Positions 33,780 through 38,566 of a stretch of 64,000 nt of DNA are shown here, piece after piece (position 1 is the stretch's first letter; every line of letters begins with the position of its first letter). Position numbers and translations under genes: made by a program. The stretch is from contig JASMLZ010000015.1 in the NCBI GenBank assembly GCA_030748435.1, forward strand, positions 1-64,000. Reading direction: 5' to 3'. The stretch is from Gammaproteobacteria bacterium. Lineage in GTDB: Bacteria; Pseudomonadota; Gammaproteobacteria; Pseudomonadales; Balneatricaceae. The notes beneath the pieces were generated by a model. The model did no database searches and was not told the origin of the DNA. It saw only the letters and a list, made by a program, of their open reading frames with translations.

Positions 33780-34343
33780 TTAGAATTTAAACCGCATACC
33801 TAAAGAAATACTCTCAACAAGGTCTTCATTTGAGGCCTTAATAGCAATCATCATATTGTCAGCCACCTCAAAGTCTGCACCAAGCTGAGTGACCATGCTT
33901 GCACCAGCACCTGTGGAGTTAAGCAAAGCAAAATTCAGATTCACTTTATCGTTAACCTCTGCCTGCATACCAACACCATAAATAGTTGAGGTGCTGTCAA
34001 GTGATGCTGAATAACCAGCCCAGATGGCTGTCAGACCTTGATTGCGACTGCCAAGGGTAAACTTTGCGTCAACTGTCTCACTGATATTGGTAGTGTAGCC
34101 TAGGCTTACGGATGTTTCTTCATACGAGACATCCACACTGCTAATGATATTACTGACTGATCGACTCTCAACTTCTAAAGAAATATTATCGTGAAGTGCA
34201 AGGGAGCCACTTAGATCAACACCTGTGAAGGACACGCCGTTTACATTCATACTGGCATAGCTAACAGTGGCTGAATTGGCCGCAGCTAAAGGTGACATGG
34301 ACAAGGCGGCTGCGCTAATAACTACAGGTAAGAACTTCTTCAT
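33780..34343 (-). CDS. Small outer-membrane beta-barrel-like protein
   Basis: 187 aa from MKKFLPVVISAAALSMSPLAAANS (signal peptide; AGGAG upstream). The mature chain alternates short polar and hydrophobic strands (TVSYASMNVNGVSFTGVDLSGSLALHDNISLEVESRSV; SVSLGYTTNISETVDAKFTLGS; LGADFEVADNMMIAIKASNEDLVESISLGMRFKF) and ends in Phe (RFKF), the classic C-terminal signal for barrel insertion. Length suggests an eight-stranded barrel (OmpW/OmpA-like size). I do not recognise a named family. Confidence 0.75.
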   Translation of the reverse strand: MKKFLPVVISAAALSMSPLAAANSATVSYASMNVNGVSFTGVDLSGSLALHDNISLEVESRSVSNIISSVDVSYEETSVSLGYTTNISETVDAKFTLGSRNQGLTAIWAGYSASLDSTSTIYGVGMQAEVNDKVNLNFALLNSTGAGASMVTQLGADFEVADNMMIAIKASNEDLVESISLGMRFKF

Positions 34344-34527
34344 ATTTGCTCCTAAATTTATAAAAGGTGGCAAGGCACATCTTGGGCGCCACCGTGGCTA
34401 TAAATTTAGTACAGGTTTTGCAGTTTGCAGGTAAATTTTTTCTATGGGTGACTGCGTGGTTTAGCAGTTTTTAACTGCCGCCAGCAGTGGCTGGTTAGCA
34501 GATGGTTTTTTGACATTATCTGATGCA

Positions 34528-35397
34528 CTAGTTTTGGCTATGCCAGAATTGATATAAATCTGCTAATGCCGATGCGTTGGCTTCCAGCAGGCTTAATAAC
34601 TGCGGGTCAAATTGTCCCGGCCATAGATAGCCGTCCCCCTGCATCAGTTTTTGTATACTTATTTCGTGACTTTGGGCTTTGGCATAAGTTTTATGGCGAC
34701 GTAGCCCCAGGTAGCTATCATAAAGTTTTGCCAGTCGGGCAAAAGGATGAATCTGGCTAGCGCGCAACTGTGACGGGTAACCACTGCCATCAAAATGTTC
34801 ATGGTGTTGTTGAATTATCTGGCTTGTGAAAGTGTCATTGGGTGCTAACAATTGTGCCCCGGTTATTGTATGGCAGGCTAATTGGGCCTGTTGCAGGGGG
34901 TTGAGTTTGTGCCCTTCTTGTAGTTGCTTGAACTGCGGCAATTGCAAGGCAATATCACGCCAGATAATCACCCGCTTGGCCTGGTCGCGCTTGTCCTGAT
35001 CCCAAATAGCCGTAGTCAGAAGATCGACAAAGGGGCCGATAAATGGGTCTGCCTCCGGGGTGAGCTGGTGGTGCCGGTTGATGCTAAACATATCCTCCAA
35101 AGGGTGTGTGCCGGCCAACCAGTTGTCCAGAGTCGAGCGTTGCAGGGGTGCTGTGGTTATATACCCACACCGTCGTTGCAGGGCTTGAATAGTTTGTGCG
35201 GTATTGAGTTGGCTGTCCAATAACAGCCAGTAGCGGGGTTCTAGATCGGTCTTGTGGGCAGCTTGTGTTAAATGTCGGTAGTCAAGAACCAGTCGCTCAG
35301 CACCGGTCGGGTCAGTGCTGACTTTATGCCCAATAGCGCTTAGCCAGACTTCCAGTGCGCTGGTCAGTTCCGTGCTTAACAGGCTGGCTATATGCAT
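34528..35397 (-). CDS. Degenerate HD-GYP-type response protein
   Basis: 289 aa from MHIASLLSTELTSALEVWL. The C-terminal half is recognisably HD-GYP (GHKLNPLQQAQLACHTITGAQLL, IIQQHHEHFDGSGYPSQL, FARLAKLYDSYLGLRRHKTY, FDPQLLSLL), but the HD dyad that should read LHDIGK is replaced by IIWRDIALQLP, so the key His is gone. The N-terminal part (RYWLLLDSQL, GYITTAPLQRSTLDNWL) looks like a worn receiver domain. Active HD-GYPs hydrolyse cyclic-di-GMP; this one is likely to bind or signal rather than cut. Third gene of an operon with a histidine kinase and an HTH-receiver protein; 13 bp from the kinase stop. Confidence 0.72.
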   Translation of the reverse strand: MHIASLLSTELTSALEVWLSAIGHKVSTDPTGAERLVLDYRHLTQAAHKTDLEPRYWLLLDSQLNTAQTIQALQRRCGYITTAPLQRSTLDNWLAGTHPLEDMFSINRHHQLTPEADPFIGPFVDLLTTAIWDQDKRDQAKRVIIWRDIALQLPQFKQLQEGHKLNPLQQAQLACHTITGAQLLAPNDTFTSQIIQQHHEHFDGSGYPSQLRASQIHPFARLAKLYDSYLGLRRHKTYAKAQSHEISIQKLMQGDGYLWPGQFDPQLLSLLEANASALADLYQFWHSQN

Positions 35398-35410
35398 GGT
35401 GATATGGGTC

Positions 35411-36400
35411 TTAAGTGGTGCCGTTATTTTGGGGCAAAGCAATGGTGAAGCAGGTTTGCTCTGGGTTTGATGTCAGGGTTAATTTGCCTCCCAGTTCCTC
35501 GACGAAGTCGCGGCATAAGGCCAGGCCGAGCCCCGTGCCTTGATGTTGTTTGTTGGTGAAATAGGGAGAAAAAATCTTTTCTTGCAAGGCGTCGGGAATG
35601 CCAGGCCCATTATCGATAACCTGTAGTTGGTAAGTGTTATCTGTATGAGTCAGGGTAAGGCTGATTTGGCCTTGGTCAGCCTGCTCCAGGATAGCATCCC
35701 GGGCATTATTAATAAGATTGATAAGCACCTGTTCAAAGCGTTGCGCCTGACCGAATAGCAGGCTTTTTGGCAAGGGTGCTCGCAGGACAAGTTCAATGCC
35801 TTGCTGGTGTAGTTGGCTAGCGAGCAGCTTATAAATCTGTTGTATACTGTCTGCCAGGTCGAATTGATGGTGGCTGATAGGTTGATGGCCCACCAACTGG
35901 CGCATATTGACCAGTGTGCTGGCACAGCGCTCTATTTGATTATCCAGCTCTTGTAGGTGGTTATGCAGATCACTTACAGGACCTAAGGTAGCCAGTTGTT
36001 GTAGCCCGTACAAGCGCAGGCGCATGGCGTTTAATGGCTGGTTTATTTCGTGGCAAATACCAGCCATTACTTGTCCGACCGAAGCAAGACGGGCCTCATG
36101 TTGCCATTGTTCAATTTGTCGCTGCAGATTTGGTTGTGGGGAGATAATCCAGACTATGGTGTCATTGTCCCGCTGCCCAAGCCAAATACAGTTTGGTTGC
36201 TTGTCCAGTGCCACAAACACAGCCTGACCAGATGTAGCAGCATATTTTAGGTGTTGCCATTGCTCCTGGCCGAGTAGTTCTATTAGTTCACCTTCTTTGC
36301 CTTGCGCTGCCAGACCCAGCAAACACTGGGCCTGGGAATTGGCAGAAAATGTTTGGCTGTGCGTCTGGTAATGTAGCTGATTAAAGGGTAGTGAAGTCAT
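35411..36400 (-). CDS. Soluble sensor histidine kinase
   Basis: 329 aa with no TM segment or signal peptide. A roughly 110-residue N-terminal region resembles a PAS-type sensor. The transmitter follows: H-box GICHEINQPLNAMRLRLYGLQQL, N-box LINLINNARDAI, G1 VIDNGPGIPDAL, F KIFSPYFTNK, G2 GTGLGLALCRDFVEELGG. The H-box is of the EINQPL type. Encoded between the HTH-receiver gene (22 bp upstream) and the degenerate HD-GYP gene, so these are its likely partners. Confidence 0.88.
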   Translation of the reverse strand: MTSLPFNQLHYQTHSQTFSANSQAQCLLGLAAQGKEGELIELLGQEQWQHLKYAATSGQAVFVALDKQPNCIWLGQRDNDTIVWIISPQPNLQRQIEQWQHEARLASVGQVMAGICHEINQPLNAMRLRLYGLQQLATLGPVSDLHNHLQELDNQIERCASTLVNMRQLVGHQPISHHQFDLADSIQQIYKLLASQLHQQGIELVLRAPLPKSLLFGQAQRFEQVLINLINNARDAILEQADQGQISLTLTHTDNTYQLQVIDNGPGIPDALQEKIFSPYFTNKQHQGTGLGLALCRDFVEELGGKLTLTSNPEQTCFTIALPQNNGTT

Positions 36401-36422
36401 TAAATCGGCTAGTCGCTAATGG

Positions 36423-37016
36423 TCAGTGTATGGCTTGAGCAATCAGGCTCTTTAATTCTTCCACGGGTATGGGCTTGTGTAATAGTGGAATACCTTGAGG
36501 CAAACCCCGAGCGTTGATTTCATCATCGCTCATACCGGTAATAACAATAGGTTTGATAAAGTCATATTGTTCATTATTTTGTAATCTATCCAGTATAGCA
36601 AAGCCATCCAGTTGTGGCATTTGCAGATCGGTAATAAGCACACAAGGGCGCATGGAACCAATTTTTACCAGAGCATCCACGCCATTGACTGCAGTTTCAA
36701 TATGCAGGCTGGGGTACCAACTGCTTACCAGCATTTTGTATAGCAGCAGGGTGTCCTGATCATCGTCGACAATAAGCACAGCGCTTTTTTGACTGGCGCC
36801 AAAGGGACGAGGAATGGGGGTTTGCCTGTCTTGTTTTTCTTCCAGTAGCTGTTGCACTGAGCCGACACTGATACGGCGGTGCCCGCCAATGGTCTTCCAA
36901 GCTTGTAACGTACCGTTTTCCACCCATAACTGCACTGTGCGCACAGATACATTTAGCAGTTTTGCCGTTTGTCGAGTAGTAAGCTCTGACATTTTGTTTA
37001 ATTCAGCAGCATCCAT
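36423..37016 (-). CDS. Fused excisionase/MerR-type HTH and receiver domain regulator
   Basis: 198 aa from MDAAELNKMSELTTRQTAKLLNVS. Residues about 9-60 form a helix-turn-helix of the excisionase/MerR class (TTRQTAKLLNVSVRTVQLWVENGTLQAWKTIGGHRRISVGSVQQLL). A Pro/Gln linker leads to a receiver domain (AVLIVDDDQDTLLLYKML; phospho-acceptor Asp in VLITDLQMPQLDGF; Thr/Lys VITGMSD, LLHKPIPVEEL). The order HTH-then-receiver is the reverse of most response regulators. First gene of the kinase operon. The longer ORF in the track adds an unlikely 17-residue leader. Confidence 0.88.
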   Translation of the reverse strand: MDAAELNKMSELTTRQTAKLLNVSVRTVQLWVENGTLQAWKTIGGHRRISVGSVQQLLEEKQDRQTPIPRPFGASQKSAVLIVDDDQDTLLLYKMLVSSWYPSLHIETAVNGVDALVKIGSMRPCVLITDLQMPQLDGFAILDRLQNNEQYDFIKPIVITGMSDDEINARGLPQGIPLLHKPIPVEELKSLIAQAIH

Positions 37017-37297
37017 TGTATAACCTTTTTGCCAAGAGTCTGTTATTAACAGTGTCAATATTATCAAAATTGCTAATTTTTGATAGTGTTATTTTGAAAT
37101 AACTATTTGAACCAGTGTTTTTTTTGCATTTTCAATGAGCAGTATAAGCATTTCTGCTGCAATACAGAGGGATAGCGGCAATGATGTGCTGGTTGTTTGG
37201 TGATTACACCCAAAATCTTCAACCGATCGCTTATACCTTGCGTAACCGGTTGAAATTAAATTAGATCTAAGCTCGTCAATATAGCCTAGTTGGATAA
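37017..37297. other. Intergenic region downstream of pyrC' with hairpins and a MITE-end relative
   Basis: 281 bp holding the HTH-receiver promoter on the minus strand and the 3' flank of pyrC'. At 37218-37254, arms TTCAACCG/CGGTTGAA enclose GATCGCTTATACCTTGCGTAA, which matches 20 of 21 bases of the MITE right-end sequence on the opposite strand. Confidence 0.6.
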
Positions 37298-37304
37298 CTA
37301 GGCT
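37283..37304 (-). terminator. Hairpin overlapping the pyrC' stop codon
   Basis: Perfect 9-bp stem AGCCTAGTT/AACTAGGCT with a four-base loop. The stem includes the TAG stop of pyrC'. Only ATATTGA follows on the minus strand, so it is a candidate terminator without a strong U-tract. Confidence 0.5.
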
Positions 37305-38566
37305 TGCCAGGTGATGTGGCCATCACGCAGAGTAAGCACCACGCGACCTTTAAGCTCGCTATTATTGCGGCATTGGTTGGCACCATGACTTTGCTGGCTA
37401 TGTGCTGTTAGTTGCCAACACTTATGTGGGTCAATAAGGCACAGATTGGCCTTGGCTCCTATGGTCAGACCCATATGCTCAAGCCCGGCGATGGCAGCAG
37501 ATTGTTTGCCAAGGGCGGCAATTAACTGCATCAGGCTTAAGTCAGCTTGGTCCTGTAGGCTGAGCAGCAAGGGTATAAAGATATCATACATGGCCATCCC
37601 CGTTGCTGTGTCGGCAAAGGGCGCCTGTTTGGCGGCCGCTTCATGTGGTTGGTGGGCTGAAACAATGGCGTCAATTGTGCCATCGGCCAAACCTGCCAAC
37701 AATGCCTGACGATCCCGCTCATGCCGCAAAGGTGGTTGCACGTGATATTGGCTGGCATAACCTTGTATTTGTTGTTCGGTAAAGCATAAGTGGGCCAGAT
37801 CAACGTCAGCACTAATGGCAAGGCCCTGGGCCTTGGCTTGACGCACCATTGCTACGCCGGCAGCACTACTAAGTTGCTGAAAATGGCAGCTTACACCCGT
37901 ATGTTGCATAATTTGCAAATGGCGCCCAATAGCCAGTGTTTCGGCAATCACAGGGATGCCATTAAGACCTAACTGAGTGGCCAGAATGCCGTCATGCATA
38001 TGGCCATTTGATAGTGCTGCATCACGCGCTTGCACAAAAATCTTCAGGTTATAGGTGGCGGCATATTCGTAGCAGCGTACTAGTACGGTGTTGTCGGCAA
38101 AGTCATAACCGGCATTACTAAAGGCGATGGCACCGGCTTTGTTCAGCCCCAACATATTGCTTAAGTGAGTGCTCTGCAGACCTTGGGTCAGGGCCGCTAC
38201 TGGCAATATTTGGCAGTAGCCTGCTTGCTCCGCACGGTCCTGTACCAATTCCAGTACCGCTGTGCTATCGCTGGCTGGCTGCGTGTCTGGGCTGGCTAGC
38301 AAAGTGCTAAAGCCGGCACTGGCTGCTGCCCGGGTTTCTGAAGCAATAGTGCCTTTTTGCGCATTGCCCGGTTGGCGCAAGTAGGTCAACAGGTCAGTAA
38401 AGCTGGGACAAAGAATATGTCCCTTGGCATCTATTATCTGAGCATCCGCTATATGCAGGTCAGCTGCCATGGCCTGAATCTTGCCATCGGCAATATGCAC
38501 ATCCATGATGGTGTCCAACTGCTGCTGTGGATCCAGCACACGGGCCTGACGCATAATCATACTCAT
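37298..38566 (-). CDS. pyrC': Inactive dihydroorotase-like subunit PyrC'
   Basis: 422 aa amidohydrolase-fold protein that lacks the catalytic metal site: the usual DxHVHxR motif is replaced by [11 protein letters not shown], and later His ligands are also altered. In Pseudomonas such a pseudo-dihydroorotase is needed to assemble active aspartate carbamoyltransferase, and a separate active PyrC does the chemistry elsewhere. The same role is inferred here from its 4-bp ATGA overlap with pyrB. The C-terminal part ([19 protein letters not shown]) is normal for the fold. Confidence 0.9.

Follow-up and report, generated by a model that had tools for sequence, protein, structure and literature searches.

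We analyzed a 64,000-nucleotide stretch of a marine bacterial genome (the window), in which three closely packed minus-strand genes lie directly after pyrR-pyrB-pyrC (34528-37016). The host genome (G000) is 2.6 Mb, and its nearest public relatives are uncultured Oceanospirillaceae/Pseudomonadales metagenome-assembled genomes (MAGs). The coordinates and open reading frames that a preliminary description of this DNA had assigned to the three genes were correct. The genes and features are as follows.

36423-37016, minus strand: RR, 197 aa, an HTH_17/MerR-like helix-turn-helix (HTH) followed by a complete receiver (Pfam and alignment); found after pyrC in the genus
35411-36400, minus strand: HK, a 329-aa soluble histidine kinase (Pfam, alignment, an AF2 model of moderate quality, and Foldseek)
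34528-35397, minus strand: HDG, 289 aa, a predicted pseudo-receiver plus a degenerate HD-GYP domain (HD_5, alignment, AF2, and Foldseek)
35107-35397, minus strand: predicted pseudo-receiver of HDG, residues 1-97 (AF2 strand-helix order, alignment, and Foldseek)
34954-34959, minus strand: R147-D148 of HDG, at the position of the HD dyad (HMMER alignment to PmGH and orthologues)
34774-34806, minus strand: intact HHEHFDGSGYP of HDG (H198, H199 ... G206-Y207-P208), invariant in eight orthologues
37057-37090, minus strand: candidate operator 5' of RR, an imperfect inverted repeat (repeat search; conserved in relatives)

The ATG at 35397 that begins HDG is common to the orthologues; a longer frame from a TTG at 35442 runs into HK. 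In the orthologues, the coding regions of HK and HDG run into each other or almost touch. We found no evidence for a role of the flanking amino-acid transporter and flavoprotein genes, because such genes also adjoin RR where HK and HDG have been lost. Between HDG and the transporter, a 197-aa open reading frame (33780-34373) resembles a small outer-membrane beta-barrel protein; it is absent from the close relative G003 (locus L026), where the gap between HDG and the transporter is 1 bp. On the other side, active dihydroorotases carry an HxH metal motif, and the dihydroorotase-like gene after pyrB (37298-38566) reads '[10 protein letters not shown]' at that position. With the motif replaced, its product resembles the inactive PyrC' found in pyrBC' arrangements.

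RR combines an HTH_17 DNA-binding output domain (residues 12-61, window 36834-36983; Pfam E = 3.4e-12) with a Response_reg domain (residues 80-192; Pfam E = 3.4e-14) whose site is complete, consisting of D84, D85, the acceptor D130, T160, and K181. The HTH thus stands ahead of the receiver, as the preliminary description had it. The further claim that this order of domains is unusual was not supported. Many genomes of this family and order encode HTH_17-receiver proteins, full-length relatives at 28 to 37% identity are found in many genomes of other genera, and profile matches below 1e-25 were obtained in 5 of the 16 family genera sampled. Regulators of this type are common in the order.

Upstream of RR, a conserved core, TAGCAATTTTGATAATA (37059-37075), lies inside the imperfect inverted repeat at 37057-37090. 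An element with the core TRGYAAWTTTGATAATA is recognizable 5' of the RR gene in the majority of a set of 13 genomes, and matches to it with zero mismatches occur in eight genomes, every one upstream of RR and nowhere else. We read six one-mismatch matches in search of a wider regulon and found no conserved second target among them. The element and the HTH of RR both persist in genomes that have neither HK nor HDG. The element could be an operator or simply part of a promoter; RR likely regulates its own expression through it.

HK has the Pfam domains HisKA and HATPase_c (E = 2.3e-25; residues 218-325), with H117 within CHEINQP and intact N and G boxes. The corresponding motifs HE.NQPL, NLI.N.RDA, DNGPGI, and GTGLGL are invariant. 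The highest Kyte-Doolittle mean over 19 residues is 0.73, which bears out the earlier observation that the kinase has no membrane segment. Its AF2 model is weaker than that of HDG (pLDDT 69) and has a PAS-like order in about residues 7 to 87; LOV/PAS kinases were among its top Foldseek matches.

The third protein, HDG, belongs to the HD-GYP fold family. It has an HD_5 match that starts only at profile position 61 (E = 4.2e-13), and its AF2 model (best of five, pLDDT 95.3 and pTM 0.90; range over the five, 75.6 to 95.3) matched the HD-GYP proteins PA4781, PmGH, DvhD, and Bd1817 in Foldseek (E = 6e-9 to 8e-4). We compared eight full-length orthologues, seven of them from MAGs in the species collection that was scanned and one from the window's own genome, at 36 to 68% identity to the window protein, which is counted among them. 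The two motifs reported from the window alone, a retained HHEHFDGSGYP and IIWRDIAL at the site of the HD dyad, are both there. phmmer set the "wRDIA" of HDG on the "mHDIG" of PmGH (4mcw), so that the dyad corresponds to R147-D148. Neither of the two outcomes that would have refuted the preliminary description was observed: none of the orthologues keeps HD, and an alternative alignment that recovers the dyad was found in none of them. All eight have Arg at position 147; at position 148, three have Asp and the other five Asn; and position 151 (K225 of PmGH) is an invariant Leu. The first-helix ligands E185 and H189 of PmGH likewise have no conserved equivalent. Invariant are H176, H198, H199, and D227 (H250, H276, H277, and D305 of PmGH), Tyr207 of the GYP motif, and Ile216. 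Measured against the full ligand set of an active HD-GYP phosphodiesterase (E185, H189, H221, D222, H250, H276, H277, and D305, plus K225), HDG therefore has no match to E185, H189, H221, or K225. PmGH loses its activity when H221, D222, or K225 is changed to alanine (PMC4159591). Based on these substitutions, HDG is very probably dead as a phosphodiesterase.

Selection has nonetheless maintained the protein. In close pairs, dN/dS was 0.18 to 0.23 for HDG and 0.16 to 0.24 for HK; in more distant pairs, synonymous sites had reached or approached saturation. HDG is under purifying selection, a maintained pseudoenzyme. Its retention of residues near GYP makes a state that binds but does not cut plausible, and the c-di-GMP complex of PmGH was captured in a subunit in which only the G-site Fe was retained (PMC4159591). 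Which of the kept residues of HDG would hold a metal is a matter of inference. Loss of the catalytic residues is compatible with a receptor of the DvhD type. The guanine contacts are altered, K236 and A239 aligning with R314 and K317 of PmGH, so that c-di-GMP is not secured as the ligand; we put a nucleotide ligand at slightly under an even chance. In residues 250 to 265 (window 34603-34650), all eight orthologues have an invariant GDGYLxP stretch, which exceeds the corresponding segment of other HD-GYP domains by about four residues and is possibly a lineage-specific contact surface.

The N terminus of HDG had been described as looking like a receiver without acceptor residues. In the AF2 model it follows the strand-helix order of a receiver minus helix 2, and the receivers PhoP and RssB appear lower in the Foldseek list of HDG (E of about 0.03 to 0.04). 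A sequence-profile search found no receiver match in this region, and comparison with the receiver of RR gave no match either, so the assignment as a pseudo-receiver rests on the predicted fold. The receiver Lys is indeed lost, its position being A or T in all eight orthologues. All eight, on the other hand, share D39, which ends strand 3 and occupies the acceptor position, and to that extent the earlier description does not hold. D39 is all that is kept of a receiver phosphorylation site (acidic pair, Asp, Thr/Ser, and Lys): every orthologue has Asp (D61) where the Thr would be, and the acidic pair varies. With these three features lost, ordinary phosphorylation of HDG is unlikely.

We then compared the locus across the genus. 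RR is present in 14 of the 15 genomes searched and follows pyrC in all 13 whose gene surroundings were examined; in G010, which is 72% complete, no orthologue of RR, HK, or HDG was found. HK and HDG occur together in G000, G001, G003, G006, G011, G012, G013, and G014 (where the locus is split over two contigs), and in G005 a contig end falls inside HK. In G002, G004, G007, G008, and G009, HK and HDG are absent and RR is followed within about 6 to 150 bp by the next flanking gene; G009 retains a scrap of the HDG C terminus. A tree of RR, PyrB, and PyrC places about three joint losses of HK and HDG (G009; G002 with G007; G004 with G008), RR staying each time, a count that is approximate because several deep nodes are weakly supported.

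The fate of the RR receiver follows that of HK. We examined D84, D85, D86, D130, G138, T160, G161, M162, and K181. Among the eight RRs with HK (in G005, with only the start of HK), these residues differ only by T or S at 160. In the five genomes without HK and HDG, each RR has at least one change among D85, D86, D130, G161, and M162: D85E in G002, G007, and G009; D130N in G002; D86N in G004; G161 changed in G002, G004, and G007; and M162 changed in G002, G004, G007, and G008. The difference (5/5 versus 0/8) gives a Fisher p of 0.0008, and restriction to the canonical Asp sites (3/5 versus 0/8) gives 0.035; both values ignore kinship, and the positions were picked after the alignment had been seen. 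Positions invariant in the HK-bearing genomes were changed at 12 of 62 in the receiver and at 4 of 48 in the HTH. Because HK and HDG are lost jointly and the receiver site of RR erodes only in their absence, HK most likely phosphorylates RR and HDG probably works with HK; for the phosphotransfer itself, we are fairly confident. Where HK has been lost, the simplest reading is that RR persists as a DNA-binding protein that would depend less on phosphorylation.

Loss of HK and HDG showed no link to loss of c-di-GMP signaling, since all 15 genomes have GGDEF and EAL matches, and the presence of PilZ does not follow that of HK and HDG. Canonical GG[DE]EF motifs occur in most genomes examined, so c-di-GMP is probably available; its role at HDG is a guess. 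The only HD-GYP matches in the genus beyond HDG are the scrap in G009 and a 178-aa frame at L166 (G011:C4:66557-66799) in which an HD-GYP domain of canonical appearance is represented by its C-terminal half alone, apparently a truncated remnant.

To account for these observations, we propose that the three proteins form a self-contained two-component switch in the cytoplasm, with a pseudoenzyme as input, a reading to which we give even weight for and against. HK would set the phosphorylation state of RR, guided by its PAS-like domain and by HDG as its partner, and RR would probably act on the conserved inverted repeat upstream to control its own operon, if not more. HDG, its HD-side metal ligands lost (HD to R[D/N]) and H176, H198, H199, D227, and the GYP loop kept, could hold a ligand uncut, perhaps c-di-GMP or another nucleotide, and pass the ligand state to HK through the pseudo-receiver. 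That HDG acts through HK we favor by a small measure.

The preliminary description had suggested a cytoplasmic phosphorelay with the dead HD-GYP protein as its c-di-GMP-binding or protein-binding output. A cytoplasmic two-component cassette is present, and the dead-looking HD-GYP protein is conserved and under purifying selection; a relay that ends in HDG is not supported, and binding of c-di-GMP or of a protein is so far a prediction. The nearest reading now would have HDG as an output parallel to RR, its pseudo-receiver taking the HK signal or binding phospho-HK and its HD-GYP domain binding a target protein. The invariance of D39 at the acceptor position leaves room for such a role, PA2572 acts by the binding of its REC domain to a partner (PMC3411652), and joint loss, which would be expected of an output too, cannot alone separate input from output. 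Against it stand the incomplete phosphorylation site of HDG and the neighboring RR, which already has a complete site that is kept with HK and erodes without it, and we regard this alternative as rather unlikely. Since HDG has no receiver Lys, a role as input adaptor is more probable for it than one as phosphorelay output. We favor it as a noncatalytic partner that tunes HK, given that HDG lacks part of the receiver chemistry whereas RR has all of it and the fate of the RR site tracks HK. The adjacency and shared direction of the genes would suit direct binding and antagonism of RR by HDG, by analogy to the degenerate-EAL protein BluF acting on the MerR-like BluR in Escherichia coli, a precedent for a dead c-di-GMP-type domain acting on such a regulator (PMC3509220). 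Five genomes keep RR without HDG, however, and the HTH of RR is conserved in the genus whether or not HDG is present; such antagonism is distinctly unlikely.

Two further alternatives concern HDG itself. Three His and one Asp of the metal site and the GYP motif are invariant, and binuclear HD-GYP enzymes without equivalents of E185 and H189 have been discussed for RpfG, so that a mononuclear or altered metal site might still hydrolyze a nucleotide or phosphoester. The PmGH residues H221, D222, and K225 are each essential, however, and HDG has Arg, Asp or Asn, and Leu in their places, which makes residual enzyme activity improbable. Decay into a functionless relic would explain the repeated losses of the HK-HDG segment and the C-terminal scrap left in G009, but it is disfavored and very improbable given full-length frames in 8/8 orthologues, many residues invariant at 36 to 68% identity, and the dN/dS of about 0.2 in close pairs. 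A more specific form of the input model, in which HDG would be a metal-poor nucleotide receptor with R147 replacing the HD-site metal ions, gating HK via the pseudo-receiver and so coupling a second messenger to an autoregulated RR, is speculative, and we consider it doubtful.

If R147 does stand in place of metal, Arg-bearing proteins could form a convergent class of arginine-substituted HD-GYP receptors. Arg at the position of the HD His also occurs in other Pseudomonadales, as LRHIGK, LRNIGK, and LRHIGL, and the recurrence of this His-to-Arg change points to a rule, open to testing, by which dead HD-GYP proteins might be distinguished from active ones. We observed HD-GYP-like proteins with Arg for this His (LLRDIG[RK] or LLRDLGR) and an intact HHEHYDG[SG]GYP in MAGs of Nitrospirota type (L034, L035, L039, L057, L058, L062, L100, L104, and L105). 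Spirochaete proteins have MD at the HD site (L050, L055, L068, L082, and L091).

Several known systems resemble the operon in part. PA2572 of Pseudomonas aeruginosa (REC plus "YN-GYP") shares with HDG a receiver-type domain, the loss of HD, and a nearby kinase, PA2571; it has no detectable c-di-GMP hydrolysis, and in two-hybrid assays it interacted not with PA2571 but with the chemotaxis sensor PA2573 (PMC3411652). HDG differs in that its pseudo-receiver has no Lys, its HD site reads R[D/N], and its gene run also encodes an HTH-receiver. The window thus has a kinase beside a degenerate HD-GYP protein as in PA2571-PA2572, an analogy of arrangement and not orthology. DvhD of Desulfovibrio vulgaris (Foldseek E = 1e-6) is also an HD-GYP protein without catalytic residues, and it is structurally proven to bind c-di-GMP without metal and without hydrolysis (PMC13090378). 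It has SQ for HD and MN for the HH pair and is a membrane protein with PAS, whereas HDG keeps HH and is soluble, and its ligand binding is hypothetical. The BluF/BluR pair of E. coli resembles HDG and RR in joining a dead c-di-GMP-type domain to a MerR-like HTH regulator and differs in having EAL rather than HD-GYP, no kinase, and no receiver. Bd1817 is a known degenerate HD-GYP protein, as are several Leptospira proteins (PMC12943098).

A kinase beside a REC-HD-GYP protein recurs in Pseudomonadales, in G028, G034, and most of 13 further loci, which were found with a degenerate query, so that proportions among them are biased. In these loci (L150, L159, and L202-L214), a kinase gene adjoins a REC-HD-GYP gene as at HK-HDG, and the HD site reads RH, RN, YM, YN, HE, or HQ, two loci keeping HD; unlike HDG, their proteins have ordinary-looking receivers and low overall similarity and are not orthologues. 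Three of the loci also carry an HTH_17-receiver. At L150:4652-9075, L159:3452-6922, and L213:5596-9191, in other genera of the family, an HTH_17-receiver, a kinase, and a degenerate REC-HD-GYP lie close together, in clusters unrelated in detail to the window operon. The best matches of HDG outside the genus, among relatives, align in the HD-GYP domain only, and those that we read keep HD.

Dead HD-GYP proteins, HTH-receivers, and kinase/degenerate REC-HD-GYP pairs were thus already known, and to call the operon unusual was overstated. What sets the operon apart is that an HTH-receiver and a soluble kinase occur together with a protein that has invariant Arg at the HD site and a predicted pseudo-receiver without Lys, a combination seen so far in one genus only. 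Within that genus, genomes with and without HK-HDG form a natural comparative series in which the apparent phosphorylation dependence of RR is kept or lost, and the small, soluble components of the operon would suit studies of communication between dead HD-GYP proteins and kinases, a matter unsettled for PA2572 and PA2571. The new evidence is evolutionary, consisting of the joint loss of HK and HDG and the erosion of the RR receiver site that goes with it.
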